This document shows positions 23,140 to 38,746 of a stretch of DNA of 64,000 nt, one piece after another. Both the position numbers and the translations under genes were made by a program. Origin of the DNA: Betaproteobacteria bacterium (GTDB lineage Bacteria > Pseudomonadota > Gammaproteobacteria > Burkholderiales > Thiobacillaceae); NCBI GenBank assembly GCA_016873935.1, contig VGVT01000008.1, forward strand, positions 1 through 64,000, given 5' to 3'. The notes below the pieces were generated by a model. The model had not been told where the DNA came from. It saw nothing but the letters and a program-made list of their open reading frames with translations, and made no database searches. Numbering within the stretch: position 1 is the stretch's first letter; each line of letters starts with the position of its first letter.

Positions 23140-24399
23140 TCAGTGGAGTTCGTCACCGTATCCGAGGGGCCAGAGCCGGTGGGCATCCAGCATGAGTCGG
23201 GCGGTGGCCTCGTTGGCGGCAAGGCGGGCCTGGCCCGCAGCCAGTTGTGCTTCCAGGGCGGTGCGCTGGGCCAGCATGGTCTCGGACAGGCCGATTTCGC
23301 CCAATTCCATGGCGCGGCGTGCCAGGTCGGCATGGCGGGCCAAAGCTTGGGCAGCCTCTTCCAGGCGCTGCCAGCTTTCCACGCCGGCGGCGGCCCGCTG
23401 CCAATTGGCGGCGGCCTCGGCGGCCAGACGCCGGCGGGTTGCCGCCTCCATCTCCGCCAGGGCCTCGGCCTGAGCCAGGCGAAGCCAGGACTGGGAGTGG
23501 CGTGCCTCGCCGGGCAGAGGGATGGAGATGCTCACGCCGACGATCTTTTCGTTGCCCCCCTGTTCGTTTGCGAAATGCAGGCCCAGTGTGGGGTCGGGCA
23601 TGCGGTTGGCCTCGGCCCGACGGGTCTGCAGGCGAGCCTGCTCCAGAGTCCGCTGGGCCATGAGCAATTCATGGTTGTGCTCAAGGGTTTGTGCTAGCCA
23701 GGCGGCTTCGTCGCCTTCCGGGACCATGGGTTGAGCTGCGCTATCGTCCGGCGGCGGCAATTCCGGGAAGCGAGCCTTGAGTTCGGCCAGGGCCGCCTGT
23801 TCCCGTGCCGCAGCCGCCGTGGCTTGAGACCCGGCCTGGGCGAGGGCAGCATCGGCCTGGAGCAGGTCGATGCGAGCGGCATCGCCCCGCTTCACCCGGG
23901 TGCTCACGACGCGCTGCTGCTCGCGGTAGAGGTCCGCCTGCTTGCGCCAGAGAACGGCTTCCAGCCTCGCCTGGCGGACAGCGTACCAGAGGCCCAGGAG
24001 TTGGCGGGCGGTTTCGTGACGAGCGTCTCCGATGCGCTCCACCGCCGCCAGCACGCCCTGGGCGCCGATCTGCTCGTCCAGCCTGGCCTTGCCGGGCAGG
24101 CGCAGGCCCCGCTCCACGGCCAGGCCCCATTCTGTGTGGTCCGGGCCGCCGCTGACATTGCGCCGCTGGGTGGTAAGACTCAGGCCGTATTCGTGCTCCC
24201 CGGCCTTGAGCGCACCATGCTCCGCCCGTGCACTCCGCATGCCGGCGTGGGCAGCGCGCACCTGCGGGCTGGAGGAGATGGCTCGCTCCACGGCTTCAGA
24301 CGGCGGCAGGTCAGCCGGCGCCGCCATGCCCTGGGCCATGGCAAGTGAAGCCCAGGCCAAGCCGGCGCCCAGGCAACCATGCAACAACAGTTTCTTCAT
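23140..24399 (-). CDS. Outer-membrane channel protein of the metal efflux system (CzcC/TolC family)
   Basis: A 419-residue outer-membrane efflux protein with signal peptide MKKLLLHGCLGAGLAWASLAMAQ. It has the repeated helical layout of the OEP family (SEAVERAISSSPQVRAAHAGMRSARAE; LALAQAG-type coiled coils; MPDPTLGLHFANEQGGNEKIVGVSISIPLPG). It would form the exit duct for the RND pump encoded upstream. Its ATG overlaps the stop of the DUF3240 gene by four bases, so it is the last gene of the operon. Confidence 0.9.
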   Translation of the reverse strand: MKKLLLHGCLGAGLAWASLAMAQGMAAPADLPPSEAVERAISSSPQVRAAHAGMRSARAEHGALKAGEHEYGLSLTTQRRNVSGGPDHTEWGLAVERGLRLPGKARLDEQIGAQGVLAAVERIGDARHETARQLLGLWYAVRQARLEAVLWRKQADLYREQQRVVSTRVKRGDAARIDLLQADAALAQAGSQATAAAAREQAALAELKARFPELPPPDDSAAQPMVPEGDEAAWLAQTLEHNHELLMAQRTLEQARLQTRRAEANRMPDPTLGLHFANEQGGNEKIVGVSISIPLPGEARHSQSWLRLAQAEALAEMEAATRRRLAAEAAANWQRAAAGVESWQRLEEAAQALARHADLARRAMELGEIGLSETMLAQRTALEAQLAAGQARLAANEATARLMLDAHRLWPLGYGDELH

Positions 24400-24701
24400 G
24401 CGAATCTCCCGAATTGAATCACCGGTTCCAGCCACCAGGCCACGTCACGCTTGGGAAAACGGTGTTTCAGATGGGCCAGCAGGGCCTGGGCGTTGTCCGC
24501 TTCCAGGACGATCTGCACCATCATGCGTTGTGTACGCCCTCGCACCAGTTCCTGGGCGCTGAGGGTTTCATGGTGGCGGCTGTAGCCTTCCGCCTTGAGG
24601 AGTGTGAAGCCGGAGGCCCACTCGGGGCGTTCCAGGAACTGTTCCACCAGTTCCTCTTCCAGGTGCAGGGGCGCCGCCAGGGAAAGTTTCACAAGAGTCA
24701 T
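24396..24701 (-). CDS. DUF3240 family small protein of RND efflux operons
   Basis: A 101-residue soluble protein with a ferredoxin-like, PII-like look (MTLVKLSLAAPLHLEEELVEQFLE; RMMVQIVLEADNAQALLAHLKHRFPKRDVAWWLEPV). It matches my memory of DUF3240, a family regularly encoded beside CzcA/CusA pumps. The role is unproven; a cytoplasmic regulatory or metal-sensing part is plausible. It lies between the pump and the outer-membrane protein, joined to both by overlap or near-overlap. Confidence 0.7.
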   Translation of the reverse strand: MTLVKLSLAAPLHLEEELVEQFLERPEWASGFTLLKAEGYSRHHETLSAQELVRGRTQRMMVQIVLEADNAQALLAHLKHRFPKRDVAWWLEPVIQFGRFA

Positions 24702-24702
24702 G

Positions 24703-27700
24703 TCATTTCCCTTTAAGAATCAGGCGACGATAAAGAACCGGCAGCATCAGCAGGGTCAGGGCGGTGGAACTGAACAGGCCACCCACCACGACGATAGCCA
24801 GGGGCTTCTGGATCTCGGATCCGGGGCCGGTGGCCAGCAGCAGGGGGATGAGGCCAAAGGCGGTGATGCTGGCGGTCATGAGCACCGGCCGCAGCCGGCG
24901 CAAGGCCCCTTCCCGCACCACCTGGTCCGGCGCCATGCCCTGGCTGGCCAGCTGGTTGAAGTAGGTCACCAGCACCACGCCGTTGAGCACGGCGATGCCC
25001 AGCAGGGCGATGAAGCCCACCGAGGCCGGCACCGACATGTATTCCCCGGTGACGAACAGGGCGGCGATGCCCCCCACCAGGGCGAAGGGCACCATGGCGA
25101 TGACCAGGCCGGCCTGGCGCAGGGATTTGAAGGTGGCGAACAGCAGGGCGAAGATCAGGGCCAGGGCCACGGGCACCACCACCGCCAGGCGGGTGGCGGC
25201 CCGTTGCTGGTTCTCGAACTGGCCGCCGTAGACCACGGAATAGCCATTGGGCAGCTTCACCTCCTGGGCGACCTTCGCCATCACCTCCTCCACGAAGCCC
25301 ACCAGGTCGCGGCCGGCCACGTTGCACTGGATGGTGACATAGCGGGCCGCATTCTCACGGCTGACCACCACGGGACCTTCGGTGCGCACCAGCCTGGCCA
25401 CCTCCCGCAGGGGAATGGCGATGCCGTTTTCCGTGGGAATGCGCAGGGCCTCGAATAGGGCCGGGGATAGGCGCACGTCCTCCCCGGCGCGCAATACCAG
25501 GGGGGTGCGCTTCACGCCCTCCTGGACCGTGCCCAGCTGCAGCCCCTCCAGGTTGGCCCGCAGGAAAGCAGACACGTCGTCCATGGACAGGCCGTAACGG
25601 CCGGCCGCCAGGCGGTCCACTTCCACCTTGAAGTACTGCACGCCGTCGTTCTTCAGGCTGAACACGTCCTGGGCCCCGGTCACCTTGCCCAGCAGCGTTT
25701 CCACCGAACCCGCCAGGGTGTTGAGGGTGTTGATGTCCGTGCCGAATACCTTGATGGCCAGGTCGCCCCGGGAGCCGGTGAGCATCTCCGAAACCCGCAT
25801 GTCGATGGGCTGGGTGAAGCCGTAGGTCACGCCGGGGAAGTCGTTCATGACCGTACGGATTTCCTCCATGAGCCATTCCTTGTCCGGCTTGCGCCATTGT
25901 TCCCGGGGCTTCAGCACCAGGAAGGAGTCGGTCTGATTCAGCCCCATGGGGTCCAGGCCCAGCTCGTCGGAACCGGCCCGGGCCACCACGCCCGCCACTT
26001 CCGGCACCCGCTTGAGCAGGGCGCGCTGGACAGACTGGTCCAGGGCCAGGCTTTCCTCCAGGCTGATGGACGGCAGCTTTTCCAGCTGGATCAGCAGGTC
26101 TCCCTCGTCCAGGGTGGGCATGAAGGACTTGCCTATGAGAGGGAATAGGCCTACGGCCACCACCAGCAGGACCACGGCGGAGGCCATCACGAGCTTGAAA
26201 CGGCCCAGGGCGAAGTCCAGCAGGGGGGTATAGAGGCGCAACGCAGTGCGTACCAGCCAGGGTTCGCCATGCTGACCTTCCTTCAGCAGCCAGGAAGCGA
26301 TGACCGGCACCACCGTCAGGGCCAGCAGCATGGCCGAGCCCAGGGCGAAGACGATGGTCAGGGCCACGGGAATGAACAGCTTGCCTTCCAGGCCTTCCAG
26401 GGTGAGCAGGGGCAGGAACACGATCATGATGATGAGCACCCCGGCGGAGGTGGGTGTGGCCACCCCGCGTACCGCGCGGAAAACCCGGTGCAACTTGGAC
26501 TGCCCGCCCTGGTCATGGGCCAGGTAGGTGACCACGTTCTCCACCACCACCACCGCGCCGTCGACCAGCATGCCGATGGCGATGGCCAGTCCCCCAAGGC
26601 TCATGAGGTTGGCGGAGAGGCCGAACTGGCGCATGAGAAGGAAGGTGGCCAGGGCCGCCAGGGGAAGGCTGATGGCTACGGTCAGGGCCGCGCGCACGTT
26701 GCCCAGGAAGAGGAACAACAGCACCAGCACCAGCAGGATAGCCTCTGCCAGGGCCTTGGTCACGGTGTTGACGGCCCGTTCCACCAGGGCGGAACGGTCG
26801 TAGAAAGCCTTTACCGTCACGCCCTTGGGCAGGGTGGGCTGGATCTCCGCAAGGCGTTGCTTCACCACCTTGACCAGCGCCTGGGCGTTTGCACCGCGTA
26901 GGCCCAGAACCAGGCCTTCCACCGCCTCGCCCCGTCCGTCCTTGCTGACGCCACCATAGCGGGTGAGGCTGCCCAGGCGCACCTGGGCCACGTCGGCCAC
27001 CCGCACCGGAATGCCGCCCACGTTCTTGACCACGATGTTGGCCAGGTCGTCCAGGCTCTTCACCGCCCCTTCCACCCGCACCAGCCAGACTTCCTCGCCT
27101 TCCGTCAGGCGGCCGGCGCCGTCGTTGCGGTTGTTGGCCTGGATGGCGTCCCGCAACTGGGTCAGGGTGACGCCCCGGGCGCTCATGGCGGCGTTGTCCG
27201 GAACCACTTCAAAGGTCTTGACGTGGCCCCCCAGGGCGTTCACGTCGGCCACGCCGGGCAGGGTGCGCAGCTTGGGCCGGATCACCCAGTCCAGCAGGGC
27301 ACGGCGTTCGGCCAGGCTGAGGTGATCCCCTTCCACGGTGAACATGAACATTTCCGACAGGGGCGTGGTGATGGGGGCCAGGCCACCACTCGTGCCCTCG
27401 GGCAGATCCGCCAGCACGGCGTTGAGGCGCTCGGCTACCTGCTGGCGGGCCCAGTAGATGTCGGTGCCATCCTCGAAATCGATGGTCACGTCCGTGAGGC
27501 CGTATTTTGAGGTGGAACGCAGGATGCGCTGCTTGGGAATGCCCAGCATCTCCATCTCTATGGGGGCCGCGATGCGGGTTTCCACCTCTTCCGGTGTCAT
27601 GCCCGGGGCCTTGAGGATCAGTTTGACCTGGGTGGTGGAGACATCCGGAAAGGCGTCGATAGGCAACCCGCGCCAGGCCTGGATACCCGCCGCCAACAGC

Positions 27701-27765
27701 AGCAGGGTCAGGCCGATGACCAGAAGGCGCTGGGTCAGGGAGAATTCAGTCAGCTTGCTTAACAT
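24703..27765 (-). CDS. Heavy-metal efflux RND pump (CzcA/CusA family)
   Basis: A proton-driven inner-membrane transporter of 1020 residues with the usual two sets of membrane helices and two large periplasmic domains. N-terminal LPIDAFPDVSTTQVKLILKAPGMTPEEVE is a heavy-metal RND signature. The helix-4 motif reads AIGMLVDGAVVVVENV: the DGAxxxVEN part used to sort metal RND pumps is kept, but the leading DFG of the CzcA/CnrA types is AIG. The metal is therefore uncertain. The C-terminus PLLLATGPGSEIQKPLAIVVVGGLFSSTALTLLMLPVLY is typical. It works with the adaptor and outer-membrane proteins on either side. Confidence 0.93.
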   Translation of the reverse strand: MLSKLTEFSLTQRLLVIGLTLLLLAAGIQAWRGLPIDAFPDVSTTQVKLILKAPGMTPEEVETRIAAPIEMEMLGIPKQRILRSTSKYGLTDVTIDFEDGTDIYWARQQVAERLNAVLADLPEGTSGGLAPITTPLSEMFMFTVEGDHLSLAERRALLDWVIRPKLRTLPGVADVNALGGHVKTFEVVPDNAAMSARGVTLTQLRDAIQANNRNDGAGRLTEGEEVWLVRVEGAVKSLDDLANIVVKNVGGIPVRVADVAQVRLGSLTRYGGVSKDGRGEAVEGLVLGLRGANAQALVKVVKQRLAEIQPTLPKGVTVKAFYDRSALVERAVNTVTKALAEAILLVLVLLFLFLGNVRAALTVAISLPLAALATFLLMRQFGLSANLMSLGGLAIAIGMLVDGAVVVVENVVTYLAHDQGGQSKLHRVFRAVRGVATPTSAGVLIIMIVFLPLLTLEGLEGKLFIPVALTIVFALGSAMLLALTVVPVIASWLLKEGQHGEPWLVRTALRLYTPLLDFALGRFKLVMASAVVLLVVAVGLFPLIGKSFMPTLDEGDLLIQLEKLPSISLEESLALDQSVQRALLKRVPEVAGVVARAGSDELGLDPMGLNQTDSFLVLKPREQWRKPDKEWLMEEIRTVMNDFPGVTYGFTQPIDMRVSEMLTGSRGDLAIKVFGTDINTLNTLAGSVETLLGKVTGAQDVFSLKNDGVQYFKVEVDRLAAGRYGLSMDDVSAFLRANLEGLQLGTVQEGVKRTPLVLRAGEDVRLSPALFEALRIPTENGIAIPLREVARLVRTEGPVVVSRENAARYVTIQCNVAGRDLVGFVEEVMAKVAQEVKLPNGYSVVYGGQFENQQRAATRLAVVVPVALALIFALLFATFKSLRQAGLVIAMVPFALVGGIAALFVTGEYMSVPASVGFIALLGIAVLNGVVLVTYFNQLASQGMAPDQVVREGALRRLRPVLMTASITAFGLIPLLLATGPGSEIQKPLAIVVVGGLFSSTALTLLMLPVLYRRLILKGK

Positions 27766-27767
27766 GC

Positions 27768-28880
27768 TTATTCACCCTGCCAGGCGGCCTTCAGGGCGGC
27801 CACGCCTTCAATGGCGATCTTTTCCTCGCCACTGAAGCGACCGTCGATGGCCGCCCACTCGGCGGATTGGCTCAAGACCTTTATCTGCTCGGGCTCAAAG
27901 CCGCCGGGGCGCTCCACGAACACCCAGTTCTGGCCTGCCTGGCGCACGATAGCCTTCACCGGCACGCGCCATTGTTTGTCGCCCGCCACGCCCTCGATGC
28001 GGGCGGATACACTCTGGTTCAGGCGCAGCAGGTTGCCACGGTTGCTCACCCGGGCGCGGATGGGCACGGTCTGGGCCTCGCTCACACTCCGGCCCACGGA
28101 GATCACCTGGCCGGTGGCGTCGGTGCCGGGCACGCTGACCTGCTGTCCGGCCTTCACCCGGGCCGCCATTTCCGCCGGTGCCTGTATCTCCAGCCAGAGG
28201 GGATCGAGCCTACCCACCTTGAACAGCATGCCGGCCGTGTCCATGCGGGCGCCGATGACGGCACCCTGTTCCAGCACCACGCCACTGATGGGGCTGGCCA
28301 GGGCGATGCTGTCCGTCAGCCGTTCTCCCCGCTCCGCGGCCTTGATGGCACCCTGGCCCAGGCCCATGAGGCTCAGCCAGGCACGGCGTTCGTTGAGCAC
28401 GGCGGCGGCCTGGGCCTGGTTGGCCCGGCTGTTCTGCAGACGGGACTCGGGGATGATGCCTTCCTTGAACAGGGCTTCGTCGCGATGTACCGATTCCTCG
28501 GCCAAGCGGGCCTGGACTGCCGCCTGGGCAATGTCCTTTTGGGCACCGATGAGGCTTTCGCCCCGCAACACCGCCAGGGTCTGGCCTACCTTCACGGTAT
28601 CGCCTGCGGCCACCCTGACCTCGCTGACGATGCCCGCCATGGGGGCGGCCAGCAGCCGTTCCTGGGTGGGGGGGATGGTGACCCGGGCGGGCAGGCTCAC
28701 GGTGACGGCGCCGGCATGGGCGGCCAGGGGGACGGTGCCCACGCGCAGGGTGGTGCGCTGGGCGGGGGTCAGGGGGATGAGCTTGTCGCCGGCCAGGGCG
28801 GGCAGCGTAAACAGTGTGGCGAGGCCGGCCAGGGTGATGGCCAACGGCAGGACAAAGGGGCGGAGGGGCATGGTGGGCAT
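27768..28880 (-). CDS. Membrane fusion protein of the metal efflux system (CzcB family)
   Basis: The periplasmic adaptor linking the RND pump to the outer-membrane channel; 370 residues with a signal peptide (FVLPLAITLAGLATLFTLPALAG). It has the split biotinyl-lipoyl motif (GIVSEVRVAAGDTVKVGQTLAVLRGESL and ASPISGVVLEQGAVIGARMDTAGMLF) flanking a helical hairpin, then beta-barrel segments. No histidine-rich N-terminal metal-binding tail, as found in some CzcB proteins, is present. The stop codon lies two bases before the pump's ATG. Confidence 0.92.
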   Translation of the reverse strand: MPTMPLRPFVLPLAITLAGLATLFTLPALAGDKLIPLTPAQRTTLRVGTVPLAAHAGAVTVSLPARVTIPPTQERLLAAPMAGIVSEVRVAAGDTVKVGQTLAVLRGESLIGAQKDIAQAAVQARLAEESVHRDEALFKEGIIPESRLQNSRANQAQAAAVLNERRAWLSLMGLGQGAIKAAERGERLTDSIALASPISGVVLEQGAVIGARMDTAGMLFKVGRLDPLWLEIQAPAEMAARVKAGQQVSVPGTDATGQVISVGRSVSEAQTVPIRARVSNRGNLLRLNQSVSARIEGVAGDKQWRVPVKAIVRQAGQNWVFVERPGGFEPEQIKVLSQSAEWAAIDGRFSGEEKIAIEGVAALKAAWQGE

Positions 28881-29503: not shown

Positions 29504-30220
29504 ATGAAGCAGGACCATTTGCTGGTGGTGGACGACGATGCGGAATTGCGTGTCCTGCTCCAGGACTACCTGGGGCAGGCGGGTTTCCGCATCACCGCCG
29601 TGGCCGACGGGCGACAGATGCAGCGGGCTCTGGAGGCTGCGCCTTTCGACCTGGTGATTCTGGACATCATGTTGCCCGGAGAAGATGGCTTGTCCCTTTG
29701 CCGCAAGCTGCGGGCGGAGAGCCGCATCCCCATCCTCATGCTCACCGCCCGGGGTGACGAGGTGGACCGCATCGTCGGCCTGGAGATGGGCGCGGACGAT
29801 TACCTGCCCAAGCCTTTCAACCCACGGGAGCTGCTGGCCCGGGTAAAAAGTATCCTGCGGCGGGCCGGCAGCCTGCCGGAGAACCTGGCGGACGAGGACG
29901 TGCGCCGGTTCCGCTTCGAGGGGTGGACGCTGGATACCCGTACCCGGCAGCTACTTTCCCCCGCCGGGGTGGTGGTGGACCTGTCTGGGGCTGAATACAA
30001 GCTGCTGCGCATGCTGCTGGAGCACCCAAACCGGGGGCTATCCCGGGACCAGATGCTGGAATTCACCCAGGGCCGGGAGGCCAACGTGTTCGACAGGGCC
30101 GTGGACGTGCAGATCGGCCGCCTGCGCCGCAAGCTGGGGGACGACCCCCGGGAACCGCGACTGATCAAGACGGTACGCAACGAGGGCTACGTGCTTTCAG
30201 TACCCGTGGAGCGGCAGTGA
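29504..30220 (+). CDS. OmpR-family response regulator, likely controlling the metal efflux operon
   Basis: A 238-residue DNA-binding regulator. The receiver domain has the acidic pair VVDDD, phospho-acceptor in LVILDIMLPGEDG and the conserved lysine in YLPKPFNPRELLARVKSILRR. The winged-helix output is from about residue 135 (LSGAEYKLLRMLLEHPNRGLSRDQML, VDVQIGRLRRKLGDDPREPRLIKTVRNEGY). The PKPFNPREL form resembles OmpR itself. It is divergent from the RND operon and followed by its kinase at a spacing of seven bases. Confidence 0.92.
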   Translation: MKQDHLLVVDDDAELRVLLQDYLGQAGFRITAVADGRQMQRALEAAPFDLVILDIMLPGEDGLSLCRKLRAESRIPILMLTARGDEVDRIVGLEMGADDYLPKPFNPRELLARVKSILRRAGSLPENLADEDVRRFRFEGWTLDTRTRQLLSPAGVVVDLSGAEYKLLRMLLEHPNRGLSRDQMLEFTQGREANVFDRAVDVQIGRLRRKLGDDPREPRLIKTVRNEGYVLSVPVERQ

Positions 30221-30227
30221 GGTGGCC

Positions 30228-31538
30228 ATGAAGCACATCGATTCCATCTATTTGCGGGTGGCCGGGGTGCTGCTTATCGGCCTGCTGGCGGCCCAGTGGG
30301 TATCCGAGCAGCTTTACCAGGAAGAGCGGGAACGGCTCCTTTCCCACCTCATCGCCGGTCCCCTGGTGCAACGCCTGGGGGCGGTGGCGGACCAGCTGGA
30401 CCGGACCCCGGCGGCGGAACGCCCGGCCTTGCTGCGGGCCTTCACCTCGCCGCGCATCACCTTCAGCCTGGCGGACCGGCCGGCGCAGGGCATCCACGAC
30501 GGCGCCCTGGACAAGCTCCAGGCCCGTCTTCGCCAGGAGATGGGCGTCCTGCGCCGGGTCACGGTGGCCAGCGGGCCCCACGAAACCGCCGATGGAGTGC
30601 CCATCCTGACCCGCATCTCGTTCGTGCTGCGGGATGGACAGATCATCCTGGCCACCCACCATTTCCCCGGCGACGAGCAGGTGGTCCCCAGCCGCCACCT
30701 GCCCTTGCTGACGGGATATTTCCTCGCCATCGCCCTGCTGGCTCTGTTGGCCATGCGCTGGGCGATGGATCCCCTGCGCCGCATGGCGGCGGCGGCTGAC
30801 GCCCTGGGCCGGGACCTCAGCGGCCCGTCCCTGCCGGAAACCGGCCCCCGGGAGGTGCGCCAGGCCGCCCACGCCTTCAACACCATGCAAAGCCGCCTGG
30901 CCAGTTATCTGGATGACCGCCTGCGCATCCTGGCCGCCGTGTCCCACGACCTCAAGACGCCCATCACCCGCCTGAAGCTGCGCGCCGAGATGCTGGCGGA
31001 CGAGATCCAGCGTGAGAAATTCCTGCGGGACCTGGAAGACATGGAGACCATGATCGGTGCCACCCTGGATTTCCTGCGTGGTGAAGCGGACAAGGAATCC
31101 GGCGTCCCCTTGGACATCAACGCCCTCCTCTCCACCCTGCAGGACGACATGGCCGCCCTGGGTGAGCAGGTGGAAGTGGAGGGCGAGGCCTCCAAGCCGC
31201 TCCAGGCCAGGCCCCAGGCCCTCAAGCGCTGTCTGGCCAACCTACTGGAGAACGCGGTGCGCTACGGAGGCAATGCCCGGATCAGGGTGGAAGACAGCCC
31301 CACGGAGTTGGCCTTGCATATCGACGACGATGGTCCGGGCATCCCCGATGACAGGCTGGAGCAGATGTTCCAACCCTTCCGCCGGGGCGAGGATTCGCGC
31401 AACCGAACCACCGGAGGGGTCGGCCTTGGTCTGGCCATCGCGCGCAACCTGGCCCGAGCCCATGGTGGCGAGGTGACTTTGTCCAACCGCCGAGAAGGCG
31501 GTTTACGGGTTACTGTGGTTCTGCCCCGGGAGACCTGA
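30228..31538 (+). CDS. Sensor histidine kinase, partner of the preceding regulator
   Basis: A 436-residue EnvZ-like kinase from MKHIDSIYLRVAG; a GTG two codons earlier is possible. It has a membrane helix at about 8-25, a periplasmic domain of about 130 residues, a second helix (LPLLTGYFLAIALLALLAM), HAMP (DPLRRMAAAADALGRDL), phospho-acceptor box VSHDLKTPITRLKLRAEML, and the ATPase end with [22 protein letters not shown] and GVGLGLAIARNLARAHGG. The sensed signal is probably a periplasmic metal, from context only. Confidence 0.92.
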   Translation: MKHIDSIYLRVAGVLLIGLLAAQWVSEQLYQEERERLLSHLIAGPLVQRLGAVADQLDRTPAAERPALLRAFTSPRITFSLADRPAQGIHDGALDKLQARLRQEMGVLRRVTVASGPHETADGVPILTRISFVLRDGQIILATHHFPGDEQVVPSRHLPLLTGYFLAIALLALLAMRWAMDPLRRMAAAADALGRDLSGPSLPETGPREVRQAAHAFNTMQSRLASYLDDRLRILAAVSHDLKTPITRLKLRAEMLADEIQREKFLRDLEDMETMIGATLDFLRGEADKESGVPLDINALLSTLQDDMAALGEQVEVEGEASKPLQARPQALKRCLANLLENAVRYGGNARIRVEDSPTELALHIDDDGPGIPDDRLEQMFQPFRRGEDSRNRTTGGVGLGLAIARNLARAHGGEVTLSNRREGGLRVTVVLPRET

Positions 31539-31694
31539 CTGCGGGCAACCCCTCCCGCATGCGCCTCGTAGTCGCGGACACAAGCGAAGCGCTTTGCCAT
31601 GCCAACGTCCAGCAACACGTCGTGTCGTCTCAGAACATGGTTTTCGTCGATAGCAGCGGCCGGTATGGCAGGGGACTCCTACGTGGGCGGCGCA

Positions 31695-31791
31695 CCACCT
31701 TCACCGTTATCCGCTCTTAAGCCTCGCCAAAGCTTCGCCTCAGATTTCCTTAAGCTTTCCGCCTCAAGCTGTGGTCGTGTTCACCCCTCAC
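31695..31791 (+). promoter_or_regulatory. Four-hexamer regulatory array in front of the redox operon (copy A)
   Basis: Hexamers CTTAAG (31716), CCAAAG (31727), CCTCAG (31738) and CTTAAG (31749) start exactly 11 bases apart, one helical turn each. The whole 97-bp element matches 35069-35165 with 10 mismatches and no gaps. CTTAA-N6-CTTAA-like spacing is known for QseB/PmrA-type regulators, and such a regulator is encoded at 36708. The last hexamer ends 60 bases before the cytochrome start codon. The remaining gap from 31539 to 31694 shows nothing recognisable. Confidence 0.75.
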
Positions 31792-31813
31792 ATTCCCTCT
31801 GAGGAGAGAATCG

Positions 31814-32293
31814 ATGAAACGCAAATTGCTGGCCGTCACCCTCTGCGCAACCATGATTGCCCCAGCCATTGCTCAAGAGGAAATCACTTACCGACAACAC
31901 ATCGAGCCCATGCTGAAGAAGTACTGCAACGAGTGCCACGCCGCACCCGATGCTCCCACCATGGCTGACTTCAAGCTGGACGAAGAAAAGTGGAAAAAGG
32001 CCAAGGTTGGCCCGCGCCTGGACACCTATGAACACCTGGTGATCCTGGTGGCCTACCCGTCCACCGGCGCGATCATGCGTCGCCTTGACGATGGCACCAG
32101 CCAATACGCCAATGGCAAGCCAGGCAACATGTACAAGTACCTGGGGAAAACCGACGAGGAACGCCAGGCCAACCTGGCCATCATGAAAGCGTGGGTAGGC
32201 GAAGGTGGCTGGAACCTGAACCGCATGAAAGCCCGCGGAGACGTGCCTGCCCTGACCAAAGAGCAGTTCGACAAGCTCGAACTCAAGTACTGA
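31814..32293 (+). CDS. Secreted monoheme cytochrome c, first gene of the redox operon
   Basis: A 159-residue periplasmic cytochrome with signal peptide MKRKLLAVTLCATMIAPAIAQ and one heme site, CNECH, shortly after (YRQHIEPMLKKYCNECHAAP). The likely axial methionine is in the region KPGNMYKYLG. The rest is charged and helical and I do not recognise a named family. GAGGAG stands seven bases before the ATG. It is co-directional with the reductase, membrane cytochrome b and octaheme cytochrome that follow with short gaps, and should carry electrons in the same chain. Confidence 0.85.
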   Translation: MKRKLLAVTLCATMIAPAIAQEEITYRQHIEPMLKKYCNECHAAPDAPTMADFKLDEEKWKKAKVGPRLDTYEHLVILVAYPSTGAIMRRLDDGTSQYANGKPGNMYKYLGKTDEERQANLAIMKAWVGEGGWNLNRMKARGDVPALTKEQFDKLELKY

Positions 32294-32320
32294 ACAAATT
32301 GCCAGGGAATCCCCTGCGTC

Positions 32321-33589
32321 ATGACCTCTCTCGGCTTGCTGCTTTGGATTGTTCTTGGCATCGTTTTGCAGGTGGGGCTGTTCCTGGGCATCAGTTTCTG
32401 GCAGCACTGGCAGACCTACAGCCGTCTCAAGCACGGACAACCCGAAGCAGACGAATCACTACCCGCAGCCAGCCTGCCAAAAGCGGAAGTGGCTGGCTGG
32501 TCGGGCTTTCGCCCTTTCAAGGTTGCCCAGCGCGTTATAGAGGACAGCGCAGGGCAAATCTGTTCTTTTTACCTGGAGCCCGAAGATAGGCAGGCACTTC
32601 CGTCATACAAGCCCGGCCAGTTCCTGACCTTCCGTTTGGACGTTCCCAAGGCCGACGGCAGCGGTACCGAGCAAATTACCCGCTGCTACTCCCTGTCGGA
32701 TGCCCCCCAGTCCGACCATTACCGTGTTTCGATCAAGCGGGTGCCGCCCCCGCCGAAGAGCGACCACCCTCCGGGGCGCTCATCGAACTTCTTCCATGAC
32801 CATATTCAGGTCGGTACGACACTTCAAATCCGCGCGCCCTCTGGACATTTCTATCTCGAACCGGGCAGCAGTCCCATCGTCCTGATCGCCGGTGGCATCG
32901 GCATTACGCCCATGCTCAGCATGCTCAACTGGTGCCAGGCGCATCAACCCGAGCGCGAAGTCTGGTTCTTCTACGGCGTGCGCAACAGCGCGGAAACCGC
33001 TTTTGCAGCACATCTGGGCGCAATCGCCGCGGTCAACCCGAACGTCCATCTGCGCCTGTGCTTCAGTAACCCTCTGCCGGAAGATCGACTGGGCCAAGAC
33101 TTCCATCACCACGGTCGCGTGGATGTGCATCTGTTCCGCATGGAATTGCCGCTGAAGCCCTACCACTACTACATCTGCGGGCCCACGCCGATGATGGAAT
33201 CCCTGGTGCCGGCACTGGACGACTGGGGCGTGCCCGATGCGCACATCCACTTTGAAGCCTTCGGTCCCGCCTCGATCAAGCGTCGCAAACCGGAGACCGC
33301 AGCTACCGGGAGTGCCATTGCAACCCCTGCAATCGACATCACGGTGACGTTCGCCAAATCGGGCAAACAGGCCCGGTGGTCACCGCAGTCGGGCAGCCTG
33401 CTGGAATTCGCAGAATCCCAGGGGATTGCCATCGATTCGGGCTGCCGCGCAGGCGGCTGCGGCACCTGCCAGACCACGATACGTTCCGGCGAAGTGTCCT
33501 ATCAGCAATCTCCGGACTTCGATCCCGAACCCGGCACCTGCCTGATGTGCGTCAGCATCCCCAAGACCCATGTGACGCTGGAGGCCTGA
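32321..33589 (+). CDS. Membrane-anchored FAD/NAD(P)H/2Fe-2S oxidoreductase
   Basis: A 422-residue reductase. A membrane helix at about 5-27 anchors it, with the rest presumably cytoplasmic. The FAD domain carries YKPGQFLTFRLD and the flavin motif RCYSLS (about 121-126). The NAD(P) domain begins at IVLIAGGIGITPMLS (about 187-201) and ends at YYICGPTPMMES. The C-terminal plant-type ferredoxin domain (about 335-422) has cluster cysteines at about 375, 380, 383 and 407/410. It resembles flavodoxin/ferredoxin reductases such as Hcr, but with the added helix. It should pass electrons from NAD(P)H to the downstream heme proteins, or the reverse. A decayed 100-bp copy lies at 22697. Confidence 0.9.
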   Translation: MTSLGLLLWIVLGIVLQVGLFLGISFWQHWQTYSRLKHGQPEADESLPAASLPKAEVAGWSGFRPFKVAQRVIEDSAGQICSFYLEPEDRQALPSYKPGQFLTFRLDVPKADGSGTEQITRCYSLSDAPQSDHYRVSIKRVPPPPKSDHPPGRSSNFFHDHIQVGTTLQIRAPSGHFYLEPGSSPIVLIAGGIGITPMLSMLNWCQAHQPEREVWFFYGVRNSAETAFAAHLGAIAAVNPNVHLRLCFSNPLPEDRLGQDFHHHGRVDVHLFRMELPLKPYHYYICGPTPMMESLVPALDDWGVPDAHIHFEAFGPASIKRRKPETAATGSAIATPAIDITVTFAKSGKQARWSPQSGSLLEFAESQGIAIDSGCRAGGCGTCQTTIRSGEVSYQQSPDFDPEPGTCLMCVSIPKTHVTLEA

Positions 33590-33590
33590 C

Positions 33591-34181
33591 ATGACATCAC
33601 CCGGCACCGCTTCCCTCTGGCGCAACCACATCCTGCCCTTCACGCTGTTGGTGACCCTGCTCGGGGTGGCGACGGTCCTCGGCGACTACCTGCTGCATCG
33701 TCTCGATATGGTCTGGGTGGGCCGCTATCTCGGCATCCCCGGCACCTTGCTGATCATCGGATCGCTGACCTATTCCCTGCGCAAGCGGAAAGTCATCGCG
33801 TCCGGGAACGTCAAATCCTGGCTCAGCATGCACGAGATCGGCACCTGGCTGGGTTCCTGGATGGTGCTGCTGCATGCCGGGGTCCATTTCAATGCCATCC
33901 TGCCCTGGCTGGCCACAATCGCCATGGGGGTCAATGTCATCAGCGGCATGGTCGGCAAGATGCTGCTGAAACGCTCGCGCGAACATGTCCAGGCCCGGCG
34001 CGAACAGTATCAGTTGCGCGGGTTGCCCAAGGCGGAGGTCGAGCAGACGGTGTTCTGGGAATCGGTAACTTTTGACGCCATGGCCAAGTGGCGCAAGGTC
34101 CACATACCGATCTTCATTGCCTTTGCCGTGCTGGCCCTGGGGCACATCGTCAGCATCTTCCTGTTCTGGGGATGGCGATGA
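33591..34181 (+). CDS. Membrane protein, probable b-type cytochrome
   Basis: A 196-residue protein with about four to five membrane helices: LPFTLLVTLLGVATVLGDYLL, YLGIPGTLLIIGSLTYSL, GTWLGSWMVLLHAGVHFNAIL, TIAMGVNVISGMVGKML and IPIFIAFAVLALGHIVSIF. Histidines lie in or next to helices (SMHEIGTW, LLHAGVHF, KVHIPIF, LGHIVSIF), a pattern expected for two bound b hemes. No named family was identified with certainty. It starts two bases after the reductase gene and its stop overlaps the next start, so it very probably connects the cytoplasmic reductase with the periplasmic cytochromes. Confidence 0.7.
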   Translation: MTSPGTASLWRNHILPFTLLVTLLGVATVLGDYLLHRLDMVWVGRYLGIPGTLLIIGSLTYSLRKRKVIASGNVKSWLSMHEIGTWLGSWMVLLHAGVHFNAILPWLATIAMGVNVISGMVGKMLLKRSREHVQARREQYQLRGLPKAEVEQTVFWESVTFDAMAKWRKVHIPIFIAFAVLALGHIVSIFLFWGWR

Positions 34182-34927
34182 ATAACATCCTCAAGATCGT
34201 TCTGGCGGTCAACCTGATCGCCCTGGCCATACTGGCCTTTGTCTATCCCCATTTGATGGTCAGCCCCGGCAAGCTGATTCCCGGCCACAGCAAGCTTGAA
34301 ACGGACTGTTTTGCCTGTCACGCACCGTTTTCAGGAGCCACGACCGAACGCTGCACGAACTGTCACAAGCCGGAAGAGATCGGCAAACTCACGACCCTTG
34401 GGCAGCCGATCCAGAAACCGCTCACCAGCACACCCTTCCATCAGAAGCTCGTCAAGCAGGAATGCCTTGCGTGCCACAGTGATCATGCCGGAGTGAAACG
34501 CTTCCGCAGCGCAGGCCGGTTCAACCATGCCTTGCTCCAGGCAGATGCCCGCAAGGAATGTCAGTCCTGCCACAAGTCACCCAAAGATTCGCTCCATCAG
34601 CAGATCACCGGGAATTGCAGCCAGTGCCATAGCCAGGAGAAATGGGCACCCGCGAACTTCGATCACGGCAAGTATTTCGTTCTGGACCGTGATCACAACG
34701 TGAAATGCGCAACTTGTCACGTGCGTAACGACTACAGCCGCTACACCTGCTACGGCTGCCATGAGCACTCCCCCGAGAAGATCCGGCGCGAGCATATCGA
34801 AGAAGGAATTCGCGACTTCAAGAACTGCGTTGAATGCCACCGAAGCGCCGATGAGCACGACATTCGGATACCGAGGCGCGGGAGAGTGCGCGAACAAGGA
34901 CAAGGCGTGGCGCGGGATGACGACTGA
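34178..34927 (+). CDS. Membrane-anchored octaheme cytochrome c (c3/c7-like)
   Basis: A 249-residue protein that starts at an ATG overlapping the previous stop (ATGA); ATG at 34172 is an alternative. An uncleaved-looking helix (ILKIVLAVNLIALAILAFVYP) is followed by eight CxxCH heme sites: CFACH, CTNCH, CLACH, CQSCH, CSQCH, CATCH, CYGCH and CVECH. Many extra histidines (for example FNHALL, FDHGKYF, EHSPEK) suit bis-His ligation. The layout is that of the multiheme cytochrome c3 family, used as electron wires between membrane redox enzymes and periplasmic or outside acceptors. It is the last gene of the operon. Confidence 0.88.
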   Translation: MNNILKIVLAVNLIALAILAFVYPHLMVSPGKLIPGHSKLETDCFACHAPFSGATTERCTNCHKPEEIGKLTTLGQPIQKPLTSTPFHQKLVKQECLACHSDHAGVKRFRSAGRFNHALLQADARKECQSCHKSPKDSLHQQITGNCSQCHSQEKWAPANFDHGKYFVLDRDHNVKCATCHVRNDYSRYTCYGCHEHSPEKIRREHIEEGIRDFKNCVECHRSADEHDIRIPRRGRVREQGQGVARDDD

Positions 34928-35068
34928 CGGCGATCAAAACACACCCAGCCTGTATTGCCATGCCGGGATTTTCATCGGCTGGCGCGAACACCTGCCATAC
35001 GCCGCCTTGGTCATGGCAAACGACACTGGATGCCATCACACGACTTGACTTGCCTGGCTCCCGGCGAG

Positions 35069-35165
35069 CCACCTTCACCGTTATTCGGTCTTAAGCCTCG
35101 CCTAAGCTTCACCTCAGATTTCCTTAAGCTTCCCGCATCAGGCTGTGGCCATGTTCACCCCACAC
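35069..35165 (+). promoter_or_regulatory. Four-hexamer regulatory array in front of the SHP/DHC operon (copy B)
   Basis: CTTAAG (35090), CCTAAG (35101), CCTCAG (35112) and CTTAAG (35123) start at exact 11-bp steps. The element matches copy A over 97 bp with 10 mismatches. It ends 12 bases before the SHP start codon. The other part of the 34928-35177 gap shows no gene. Confidence 0.75.
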
Positions 35166-35177
35166 AGGAGCATGACC

Positions 35178-35582
35178 ATGAAAGCACTGATTCCCGTATT
35201 GATTGGCCTATTCGCCGTGACGGCGCAGGCCGCCACGCCCAACGAAATTCTCGCCGGCTATCGCGCCGAGGCGGCGAAGAGCAACCCCCGTTACCAGTCA
35301 TCGGCGGAGCTCGGTGCGCAGTTGTACACGCACCCGTTCGGCGTGTCCGCCAAAATGCCGTCGTGCAGCAGTTGCCACAGTGACGACCCCGCCCGTGGCG
35401 GCAGTCACGTGGTGACCGGCAAGGCGATCCAGCCCCTGGCGCCCGCCGCCAATGCGGAGCGCTTCAGCGACCTGGCCAAGGTGGAGAAGTGGTTCCGCCG
35501 CAACTGCGGCGAAGTGCTCGGCCGAGAATGCAGCGCCGCCGAAAAGGCCGATTTCATCAGCTTCGTGATGCGGGGGCGCTGA
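35178..35582 (+). CDS. shp: SHP-type monoheme cytochrome c (DUF1924)
   Basis: A 134-residue periplasmic protein with signal peptide MKALIPVLIGLFAVTAQAA and one heme site in MPSCSSCHSDDPARGGSH. The flanking TGKAIQPLAPAANAERFSD and KVEKWFRRNCGEVLGRECS match the sphaeroides heme protein (SHP)/DUF1924 family. SHP binds oxygen through a displaceable asparagine ligand and takes electrons from a diheme cytochrome. AGGAG seven bases before 35178 favours this start over the ATG at 35172. The two extra cysteines (NCGEVLGREC) could form the family disulfide. Confidence 0.88.
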   Translation: MKALIPVLIGLFAVTAQAATPNEILAGYRAEAAKSNPRYQSSAELGAQLYTHPFGVSAKMPSCSSCHSDDPARGGSHVVTGKAIQPLAPAANAERFSDLAKVEKWFRRNCGEVLGRECSAAEKADFISFVMRGR

Positions 35583-35583
35583 G

Positions 35584-36078
35584 ATGAACGCCACGCACAT
35601 GCTCGCCCCGTTGTTTTCGATCTTCCTGGCCTGCGCGGCACAGGCCGACGACCTGCGCCTGCCCGCCGGCGCGCCGCCGGCCTTCCAGAGCGAATGCGGC
35701 GCCTGCCACCTGGCCTTCCCGCCGCGACTGCTGGCGGCCGAAGACTGGCGCCGGGTCATGGCCGGCCTCGACCGGCACTATGGCGACAACGCCAGTCTCG
35801 ACGCGCCGACGCGCCGCGCCATCGAGGCGTATCTGGTCGAAAACGCCGGCAAACCGAGAAAGCTCGGCCCCGGCGGGACGGCGGCGCCGGGCGAAGCACC
35901 GCGTTTGACCGCCACCGCCTGGTTCAAGCGCAAGCACCACGAGGTGCCGCCGGCCTCCTGGCGACATGCCGAAGTGCGCAGCCCGGCCAACTGCGCCGCC
36001 TGTCACAAACAGGCGGCAAGCGGCAGTTACCGCGAGCGCGAGATCGTCATGCCCGGCGGCCGTCGCTGGCAAGACTGA
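35584..36078 (+). CDS. dhc: Diheme cytochrome c (DHC family)
   Basis: A 164-residue secreted cytochrome with a signal peptide (LAPLFSIFLACAAQA) and two heme sites: CGACHLAFPPRLL in the N-terminal half and CAACHKQAASGSY in the C-terminal half. PPAFQSECGACHLAFPP, WRRVMAGLDRHYGDNASLD and WFKRKHHEVPPASW are DHC family features. DHC is the known electron donor to SHP and is normally encoded with it and with a b-type cytochrome, as here. It starts one base after the shp stop codon. Confidence 0.9.
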   Translation: MNATHMLAPLFSIFLACAAQADDLRLPAGAPPAFQSECGACHLAFPPRLLAAEDWRRVMAGLDRHYGDNASLDAPTRRAIEAYLVENAGKPRKLGPGGTAAPGEAPRLTATAWFKRKHHEVPPASWRHAEVRSPANCAACHKQAASGSYREREIVMPGGRRWQD

Positions 36079-36088
36079 GGAGAGGACG

Positions 36089-36694
36089 ATGAACAGGATT
36101 CTGGTCTGGGGCTGGCCGGTGCGCATCGGCCATTGGCTGCTGGCGGGCGCCTTCGTCCTGGCCTGGCTCACCGGCGACAGCGAAACCTGGCGCCTGGTGC
36201 ATGTCTGGGCCGGCGGCACCGTCGTCGGCGTGGTGTTGTTCCGCCTGCTCTGGGGCCTGGTGGGAACGCGCTACGCGCGCTTCACCAGCTTCGTGCGCGG
36301 CCCCGGCGCGGTGAAGGCGTATCTGCTCGGGTTGTTCACGCAGCCGCGCGTCGAACAGCACGGCCACAACCCCGCCGGCGGCTGGGCCATCGTCGCGCTG
36401 CTGGCGCTGGGCCTGCTCACCGGCCTCAGCGGCTGGCTGACCTATCAGGAAATCAGCGGGGAGTGGTTCGAGGAACTGCACGAAACCCTGGCCTCGACCA
36501 TGCTGGCGGTGGTCCTCCTCCATCTCGTCGGCGTGCTCACCGGCAGTCTGGCGCATGGCGAAAACCTGGTGCGCGCCATGTTCACCGGCATGAAGCGCGG
36601 CGATGCCGATGCCGCCATCGCCGGCGCGCGGCCGCTCGCCATACCGCTATTGCTTGCCTGCGCGGCGACCTGCGCCTGGTGGCTGGCCCGGTAG
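36089..36694 (+). CDS. Cytochrome b561-type membrane protein
   Basis: A 201-residue inner-membrane diheme cytochrome b from MNRILVWGWPVRIGHWLLAG, with four helices and histidines in RIGHWLL, LVHVWAGG, ELHETLAS and LLHLVGVL, the expected heme-ligand pattern. It would take electrons from the quinol pool and give them to DHC. GGAGAGGACG upstream supplies a ribosome-binding site. An in-frame extension upstream overlaps dhc and is not expected to be used. Confidence 0.9.
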   Translation: MNRILVWGWPVRIGHWLLAGAFVLAWLTGDSETWRLVHVWAGGTVVGVVLFRLLWGLVGTRYARFTSFVRGPGAVKAYLLGLFTQPRVEQHGHNPAGGWAIVALLALGLLTGLSGWLTYQEISGEWFEELHETLASTMLAVVLLHLVGVLTGSLAHGENLVRAMFTGMKRGDADAAIAGARPLAIPLLLACAATCAWWLAR

Positions 36695-36707: not shown

Positions 36708-37367
36708 ATGCGCATCCTGCTCGTCGAAGACGATCCGCACCTGGGCGACGCGCTCATGGTCGGCCTGCGCCAGCACGGCCATGCCGTGGACTGGCTGCGC
36801 GACGGCGTAGCCGCCGATCTCGCGCTGAAGAGCGAACCTTTCGATCTGCTGGTGCTGGATCTCGGTTTGCCGCGCCTCGATGGCGTCGAGGTGCTGCGGC
36901 GGCTGCGCGGGCGCGGCCAGGTCCTGCCGGTGCTGATCCTCACCGCGCGCGACGCCACCGGCGACAAGGTAGCCGGGCTGGATGCCGGCGCCGACGATTA
37001 TCTGGTCAAGCCCATCGATCTCGACGAACTGGTGGCGCGCGCCCGCGCCCTGACCCGGCGCGCGGCGGGTCATGCCAGTCCGCGCCTGAGTGTCGGCGAC
37101 CTGTCGATCGATCCCGCCGCGCGCCAGGCGACGCTGCGCGGCGCACCGGTCGAATTGACCACGCGCGAGTTTTCCCTGCTGCTGACGCTGGCGGAAAACG
37201 TCGGCCGCGTTCTGACCCGCGCCCAGCTCGAAGCCTCGCTCTATGGCTGGCGCGACGAACCGGACAGCAATGCGCTGGAAGTGCACATCCACAATCTGCG
37301 CAAGAAGCTGGGCAGCGAGCGCATCAAGACCCTGCGCGGCATCGGCTACGGCATGGCGAAACCATGA
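36708..37367 (+). CDS. QseB/PmrA-type response regulator
   Basis: A 219-residue OmpR-family regulator from MRILLVEDDPHLGDALM. The receiver has LVLDLGLPRLDG and VKPIDLDELVARARAL. The output domain has LTTREFSLLLTLAENVGRVLTRAQLE and ends with the characteristic QseB/PmrA stretch GWRDEPDSNALEVHIHNLRKK. Regulators of this group bind CTTAA-N6-CTTAA-like direct repeats. Two such arrays lie upstream within 5 kb (31716, 35090) and one box at 22125, which makes it the likely regulator of the redox genes. Its stop overlaps the kinase start. Confidence 0.92.
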   Translation: MRILLVEDDPHLGDALMVGLRQHGHAVDWLRDGVAADLALKSEPFDLLVLDLGLPRLDGVEVLRRLRGRGQVLPVLILTARDATGDKVAGLDAGADDYLVKPIDLDELVARARALTRRAAGHASPRLSVGDLSIDPAARQATLRGAPVELTTREFSLLLTLAENVGRVLTRAQLEASLYGWRDEPDSNALEVHIHNLRKKLGSERIKTLRGIGYGMAKP

Positions 37368-38746
37368 CCACGCGCTGGTTTTCCCTGCGCCGGCGCCTGT
37401 TCGCGCTGCTGCTGGGCGGCGTCAGCGCCGGCTGGCTGGTCACCATGGTGTTCTCCTATGTCGACGCCCACCACGAAATCGACGAGTTGTTCGACGCGCA
37501 ACTGGCGCAGGCCGCCCAGACCCTGCTCGCGCTCGCCGGCGAATATGACGATGACGACGATGTCGTCGAACTGACGGGGGATGGCCACCCCTACCAGAAG
37601 AAACTGGTGTTCCAGCTCTGGGATGACGAGGGCCGCCTGCTGTTGCGCTCACGCGACGCGCCGACCCAGCGGCTGACCGATGCGCTGGGTTACTCGGAAC
37701 GGGTGGATGCCCGGGGGCAACGCTGGCTGTACTACAGCCAGTGGGATGCCCAGCGGCAATTGCGCGTCGAGGTCGGAGAGAACCACGCGGTGCGCGAGGA
37801 GCTTTCGCGCTACATCGCCATGCGCCTGCTGGCCCCGGCCGTGCTCGGCCTGCCGCTGCTCGGTCTGTGGGTGTGGTTCGCCATCCGCCGCGGTCTGGCG
37901 CCCATCGCCACGGTCACCGATCAGGTCAGCCGGCGCGCGCCGGAACACCTCGATGCGCTGACACCGGAGCGCGCGCCGGAAGAAATCCGTCCCCTGGTCG
38001 AGGCGCTCAACGCGCTGTTCGCGCGCGTCGACCGCGCCTTCGACCACGAGCGCCGCTTCACCGCCGACGCCGCCCATGAGTTGCGCACGCCGCTGGCGGC
38101 GTTGGCCGCGCAGGCGCAGGTGGCGCTGCGGGCGGATGACGCGCGGCAACGCGAGCAGGCCCTGGCGCGGATCGTCGCCGGCAGCCAGCGCGCCGGCCGG
38201 CTGGTCGGGCAGTTGCTGACCCTGGCGCGGCTGGACCCGGCAAGCCGGCCCGCGCTGCAGGCGGTTGCGCTCGATGTCCTCGCCACCGAGGCATGCGCGG
38301 AGCTCGGCCGGATCGCCCTGGAGCGGCATATCAGCCTGGAACTGGAGGCGCCCGAAGCCGTGGTGGTGGACGCCAACGCCGACCTGCTGCGCGTCCTGCT
38401 GCGCAACCTGATCGACAACGCCCTGCGCTACACGCCGGAGGGCGGCAGGGTCGAAGTGGCGGTGAGCATGACGGATGCGGGCGCCAGCCTGGTGGTCGGC
38501 GATGACGGACCCGGCATCCCGGAAGGCGAACGTGATGCCGCCCTGCTGCGCTTCCATCGCCTGGCGGGGCAGGAAGTCGAAGGCAGCGGTCTCGGCCTGT
38601 CCATCGTCGCGCGCATCGCCGAGTTGCACGCGGCGCGGCTGACCTTGGGCGACGGCCCCGCCGGCAAGGGATTGACGGTACAGGTGCTGTTTCCCGCGCC
38701 GGCCACGCGCCAAGGCGATCCCTCAGCCGATTGCGAATACCCGTAA
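37364..38746 (+). CDS. QseC-type sensor histidine kinase
   Basis: A 460-residue kinase from [20 protein letters not shown]. It has a membrane helix at about 10-30, a periplasmic domain of about 120 residues with an acidic run ([10 protein letters not shown]), a second helix ([20 protein letters not shown]), and phospho-acceptor [47 protein letters not shown] and [16 protein letters not shown] form the ATPase site. It is the classic QseC layout. The acidic stretch might bind metal ions, as in PmrB, but this is speculation. Confidence 0.92.

Follow-up and report, generated by a model that had tools for sequence, protein, structure and literature searches.

Three adjacent genes in a 64,000-nucleotide (nt) stretch of a Thiobacillaceae genome (contig VGVT01000008.1 of assembly GCA_016873935.1; this whole stretch is called the window below) encode a flavin/2Fe-2S reductase (RED), a five-helix membrane protein (CYB) and an octaheme cytochrome c (OCT). 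We propose that they make up an inner-membrane electron-export module that would carry electrons from NAD(P)H to the periplasm, a reading to which we assign a probability of about 0.6. A first-pass annotation had grouped these genes with an upstream monoheme cytochrome c as a four-gene wire from NAD(P)H to the periplasm. The wire is supported as the best reading, and open reading frames, Pfam matches and CXXCH counts agree with the four genes, their parts list and their positions:

31814-32293, plus strand: PccH-family periplasmic monoheme cytochrome c (P0001), accessory; signal peptide, one CXXCH, PF22297
32321-33589, plus strand: RED (P0002); N-terminal membrane anchor, FAD, NAD(P) and C-terminal 2Fe-2S domains by Pfam
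33591-34181, plus strand: CYB (P0003); five-helix membrane protein, predicted di-heme b from invariant His, SGXXG and hhalign
34178-34927, plus strand: OCT (P0004); octaheme cytochrome c with N-terminal anchor, eight CXXCH, start ATG at 34178

Successive genes are separated by 27 nt and 1 nt and then share a 4-nt ATGA overlap, so that the last three were correctly described as overlapping or nearly so.

Conservation of the RED-CYB-OCT unit

A genome collection was searched with an 11-row alignment of CYB; 546 relatives were found and the best 80 were kept. RED, CYB and OCT were adjacent and in the same order at 80/80 of these loci (OCT is cut by the contig end in L045), and CYB began 0-4 nt from the end of RED in 74/80. 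Pairwise distances of the three proteins were correlated (r 0.70-0.80 over 78/80 loci), although shared locus ancestry would also give such a correlation. The loci came mostly from Betaproteobacteria (Thiobacillus, Accumulibacter, Dechloromonas, Azonexus, Zoogloea, Gallionellaceae), with some from Gammaproteobacteria, and the core is present in the cultured Betaproteobacteria Dechloromonas agitata is5, Zoogloea oleivorans and Aromatoleum toluvorans. The core may be present twice in some genomes, since five pairs of loci share a record prefix (L054/L096, L058/L093, L067/L104, L074/L079 and L083/L109).

The core is patchily distributed. Matches were obtained in 13/399 genomes of the order, two of them decayed (L042 and L043, with broken CYB and OCT remnants suggesting loss), and wider surveys at 1e-6 gave 26/369 genomes for the class and 28/398 for the phylum. 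Within the genus, strong matches were confined to G000, G007 and G015 among the 23 genomes searched. The G+C content of the core in the window, 59.4%, lies in the lowest 0.7% of equal-length segments here. Because of this patchiness in the genus and the low G+C content, the sequence data suggest lateral acquisition of the core.

CYB resembles the inner-membrane proteins of PCC3 clusters

CYB carries H81-X13-H95 on transmembrane helix 3, H171-X13-H185 on helix 5 and SGXXG on helix 4. H36, H81, H95, H99, H171, H185, W167 and SGXXG were invariant in 54/54 close rows and in 11/11 more diverse rows; in the longer pattern WX3HX13H, the first W was kept in 10/54 rows only and the second in 54/54. The two invariant HX13H motifs support the b-type look that had been ascribed to this protein from its sequence. 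The mean number of Lys plus Arg residues was 5.4 in the loop before helix 3, 8.4-9.4 in that before helix 5 and at most 2.0 in the other loops. Because positive charge is thus concentrated in loops 2-3 and 4-5, the positive-inside rule predicts that the first His of each motif (H81/H171) should be cytoplasmic and the second (H95/H185) periplasmic. This would be the arrangement of two b hemes placed in series across the membrane.

CYB matched no Pfam family, and a search of solved structures with its profile returned none. Profile comparison by hhalign with PCC3 inner-membrane proteins, for which just three PCC3-type sequences were used, gave Prob 97.4 and E 9e-12 over 140 columns; by this measure CYB is homologous to the PCC3 protein. 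Eleven weak, PCC3-like or other matches were annotated (L235-L245), together with L015-L019 from the first survey. At 12 of these loci (nine of L235-L244, plus L016, L017 and L019), a longer CYB lies beside cytochromes of 21 to 43 hemes, as in clusters of the PCC3 kind; L015 and L018 represent a further HX13H type. A Pyr_redox protein with two 4Fe-4S motifs, a pyridine-nucleotide flavoprotein, was encoded at 9/12 PCC3-type loci. Its place beside the PCC3-type CYB and the giant multiheme genes (L016, L019, L239-L243) goes unmentioned in the passages on such clusters in PMC5566968 and PMC10734462.

RED, OCT and the PccH-family cytochrome

RED contains the Pfam domains FAD_binding_6, NAD_binding_1 and Fer2, and shows the motifs RCYS, GGIGITP and CGPTPM and a CX4CX2C plus Cys. 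The nearest solved structures were flavohemoglobin reductase domains and NqrF, but RED begins with a membrane helix and ends with a 2Fe-2S domain. A flavohemoprotein was rejected as its identity, the globin domain being unmatched in Pfam and the likeness confined to the reductase half. RED of G007 (L014 6911-8110, also L110) is shorter, in frame, by about 20 residues, among them the RCYS flavin motif, whereas its CYB and OCT are intact.

OCT was assigned by Pfam to class III cytochromes of the c3/c7 types. Eight CXXCH motifs were counted in 45/46 aligned rows and ten in the remaining one. Segments of the large PCC3 multiheme proteins can be aligned with OCT, their N-terminal part best, and a search of solved structures with its profile yielded marginal c3-type matches only.

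P0001 matched PF22297 (PccH) with E 1.7e-59 and 200.1 bits (cut-off 24.4) over the whole domain (1-133/133), and its sole relative in the Protein Data Bank was 4rlr (E 9e-36). By sequence, P0001 is a true PccH relative; the published passages on Geobacter PccH describe a cytochrome needed for cathodic electron uptake. Nevertheless, the gene-neighbourhood survey upheld only the last three members of the four-gene set: RED, CYB and OCT stayed together at all 80 loci, whereas a PccH gene stood near the core at 2/80, namely in this lineage and in L118. PccH is itself rare, with 4/200 genomes of the order having it. We have therefore rejected the four-gene unit. In L118 the PccH gene lies about 1 kb downstream of the core, behind genes for a monoheme c and a NapC-type cytochrome, and in G027, as in L118, its companions are a monoheme c and a NapC-type tetraheme cytochrome. 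PccH is best regarded as a carrier of the periplasm, exchangeable for others, that became attached to the core in this lineage.

A duplicated promoter region shared by the core and an SHP operon

Two 105-nt segments of the window, repeats A and B, are 89% identical, and the whole genome holds just these two copies. One precedes the operon described above and the other that of the sphaeroides heme protein (SHP):

29504-31538, plus strand: RR1/HK1, response regulator and histidine kinase (Pfam), directly upstream of the operon
31688-31792, plus strand: promoter-region repeat A, 105 nt, upstream of the PccH-RED-CYB-OCT operon
35062-35166, plus strand: promoter-region repeat B, 105 nt, upstream of the SHP operon
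35178-35582, plus strand: SHP (DUF1924); PF09086 E 5.5e-35 for the open reading frame 35145-35582, start placed at the ATG after repeat B
35584-36078, plus strand: DHC, diheme cytochrome c; PF09626 E 3.6e-35
36086-36694, plus strand: cytochrome b561-type subunit of the SHP operon; PF01292 E 5e-24
36708-38746, plus strand: RR2/HK2, response regulator and histidine kinase (Pfam) of the SHP operon; recurs near the core elsewhere

Repeat A contains CTTAAG-N5-CCAAAG-N5-CCTCAG-N5-CTTAAG (about 31716-31754), a period-11 direct repeat, and both repeats contain period-11 half-sites, the first and last of them CTTAAG. We take this to be the kind of direct repeat that is bound by OmpR/PmrA-type regulators, and YTTAAK-N5-YTTAAK to be the PmrA-box consensus. 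With up to two mismatches, this box was present within 250 nt upstream of RED in 45/77 regions (from the 80 loci, with regions shorter than 150 nt omitted and L116 entered twice because its RED is in two pieces); the controls gave 2.2% of 6918 background windows and 6.3% of 447 regions upstream of other open reading frames. A scan for promoters and terminators found nothing above shuffled sequences. Because the 105-nt repeat precedes both operons, the sequence suggests that the RED-CYB-OCT operon and the SHP operon are co-regulated. Homologues of RR1/HK1 are also found directly upstream of RED in L082 and L087.

The recurrent neighbours of the core at the 80 loci were genes for a cation-diffusion transporter (30), SHP (22), DHC (21), a Ferric_reduct NAD(P)H protein (15) and PepSY (13), and the SHP gene was arranged in six or more ways. 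The same surroundings of SHP, with two-component genes, an accessory Orf1 and CzcD, are reported by Meyer et al. 2010 (PMC2909971). In L054 (5010-6332), L060, L101 and others, SHP-DHC genes stand beside those for a Ferric_reduct/FAD protein and PepSY rather than cytochrome b561, an apparent NAD(P)H-fed SHP operon. The genome of the window (G000) has a second SHP (DUF1924) gene on contig C84 (3089-3361). An RND efflux set (OEP, a CusB-like fusion protein and an AcrB family protein) occupies 23143-28880 of the window on the minus strand, divergent from RR1/HK1.

Proposed electron path

In the module that we propose, RED would be held to the membrane by its single helix with the catalytic domains in the cytoplasm, where it would oxidise NAD(P)H and pass single electrons via FAD and the 2Fe-2S cluster to CYB. 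Within CYB, electrons would move from a putative heme b near the cytoplasmic face (H81/H171) to a second near the periplasmic face (H95/H185), and from there to the eight c hemes of OCT, anchored on the outer side of the inner membrane. If the three proteins form a complex of this kind, OCT would deliver to soluble carriers or enzymes of the periplasm, in this case PccH and/or, probably, the SHP/DHC proteins encoded next door under a shared regulator. Such a module would spend membrane potential, not store it. Because of this, because SHP binds oxygen and NO (as stated in parts of Meyer et al. 2010, PMC2909971) and because metal transporters are encoded nearby, the module is more easily seen as feeding a protective or detoxifying reaction in the periplasm than as serving respiration.

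Several results weigh against this path. The 80 loci behind the adjacency count are best matches that are mutually related and include pairs from one record series, and thus do not represent 80 independent events. The AlphaFold model of CYB was poor (pLDDT 62.5, pTM 0.43) and that of OCT unusable; Foldseek with the CYB model matched nothing, the NOX5 chain at E 6.2 being no evidence. As to SHP, the box lay upstream of its genes in 7/22 cases only, and co-occurrence at the genome level was not significant (6/13 versus 101/386, p 0.12), for which reason the SHP link is local and partial. NADPH oxidase/ferric reductase and Fre-MsrQ lead electrons from NAD(P)H over a flavin and two b hemes across the membrane, and the module would follow the same logic with its predicted hemes. 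However, CYB has no detectable homology to these proteins: hhalign gave Prob 0.5 against 25 PF01794 proteins and Ferric_reduct (PF01794) matched 0/11 CYB members, so that membership in the ferric reductase/NOX (FRD) superfamily is unsupported. The separate 2Fe-2S reductase and the octaheme exit are further differences from those systems.

A last point concerns RED. Strong matches at 29 distant loci (L206-L234) were annotated, and CYB and OCT were adjacent in 29/29; RED accompanied them in 17/28 informative loci and was absent in 11 (L227, at a contig edge, was left out, and L224, with an N-terminal RED remnant only, was counted as lacking). L040 also has no RED, so CYB-OCT can do without it. 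Since adjacency of CYB and OCT was complete and that of RED was not, the CYB-OCT pair seems to be older, with RED as a usual, not universal, partner.

Alternative readings

Loci without RED are what would be expected if CYB were quinone-active, with quinol feeding CYB-OCT and RED acting as an accessory protein or as a quinone/flavin reductase. The quinone pool was indeed proposed as the source for PCC3/PCC4 inner-membrane proteins in the relevant sections of He et al. 2017 (PMC5566968). L234, where a cytochrome b561 gene takes the place of RED just upstream, points the same way, as do weak matches to DUF4405 (5/11) or cytochrome b561 models (1/11) among the CYB members. Against this stand the constant pairing of RED with CYB at the close loci, mostly 0-4 nt apart, and the recurrence of the triple in a far more divergent form, in which a 700-aa protein with transmembrane, FAD, NAD and 2Fe-2S parts is followed by CYB and a 6- or 7-heme c (L236, L245). 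The anchor of RED, moreover, makes sense if RED docks on a membrane partner. We consider a quinol-fed CYB rather unlikely.

Extracellular electron transfer, in which OCT would feed a conduit in the outer membrane for the respiration of metals or electrodes, might be suggested by the homology of CYB to the inner-membrane protein of PCC3 and of OCT to the large multiheme cytochromes there. No porin gene was found in the cluster, whose flanks in the window are HK1 and SHP, and none was recognised among the recurrent neighbours of the 80 loci; He et al. 2017 (PMC5566968), in their section on such clusters, judged those without a porin less likely to take part in extracellular transfer. This role is very improbable here.

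Inward flow, in which PccH would feed OCT-CYB-RED and NADH would be made, has in its favour the kinship of P0001 with the cathode-uptake cytochrome and the presence of CYB relatives in metagenome-assembled genomes named Gallionella and Sideroxyarcus, but we regard it as the least credible account: PccH is absent from 78/80 loci, its potential, given as about -24 mV in the published passages, is far above that of NAD+/NADH, and transfer inward opposes the membrane potential. Reverse flow to NAD+, raised as an option in the first-pass annotation, is unlikely on grounds of established bioenergetics: electrons would have to move against the membrane potential and, in all likelihood, against the redox potentials as well.

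Relation to described systems

A literature search on HX13H proteins or on an octaheme/2Fe-2S/NADH set brought up only He et al. 2017 (PMC5566968) and a Gallionellaceae pangenome paper (PMC10734462). The former, under 'Other multiheme cytochrome c', describes porin-less clusters of a multiheme c, a short HX13H protein and 'another redox protein'. Like RED-CYB-OCT, these comprise a multiheme c, a five-helix protein with HX13H on helices 3 and 5 and a further redox gene, with no porin; unlike it, they are given neither a name nor a mechanism in that section. The earlier remark that no named system has this set therefore needs qualifying in the strict sense, as the same cluster kind is in print, unnamed, and RED-CYB-OCT is a variant of it. 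The inner-membrane gene is often downstream of the cytochrome gene in the account of He et al., but upstream here, and the PccH gene and shared promoter repeat are features that their sections do not mention. Most of the short proteins are stated there to lack significant homology to PCC3/PCC4 inner-membrane proteins; for PCC3, the profile comparison above does detect it, with its three PCC3-type sequences. The five helices, two HX13H motifs and SGXXG of CYB match the description given there of the PCC3/PCC4 proteins. Compared with PCC3 itself, the core differs in having neither a porin nor large multiheme proteins, and in its reductase, which is of the FNR/2Fe-2S type here and Pyr_redox/4Fe-4S in PCC3.

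The SHP-DHC-cytochrome b operon, as treated in parts of Meyer et al. 2010 (PMC2909971), shares with the core the proposed feeding of a periplasmic heme protein, two-component regulation and an association with CzcD. Here it is a neighbour with a duplicated promoter region. It differs in being a separate operon, which is quinol-fed in the model of Meyer et al.

For the route of electrons across the inner membrane in PCC3-type and related multiheme systems, the sections cited from PMC5566968 offer a guess, the quinone pool. With three compactly arranged genes, one of them for an NAD(P)H reductase, and its presence in cultured Betaproteobacteria, the core makes an alternative to the quinone pool directly testable. 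RED-CYB-OCT would also offer a defined source of electrons for a PccH homologue and for the SHP operon, which is itself poorly understood. As a tentative extension, on which we would not rely, the HX13H inner-membrane proteins, including those of the PCC3 of iron oxidisers, may be pyridine-nucleotide-coupled transmembrane heme b wires with swappable cytoplasmic reductases (FNR/2Fe-2S here, Pyr_redox/4Fe-4S in PCC3), and not quinone enzymes. If this were true, multiheme systems would join the periplasm or the outside of the cell directly to the NAD(P)H pool.

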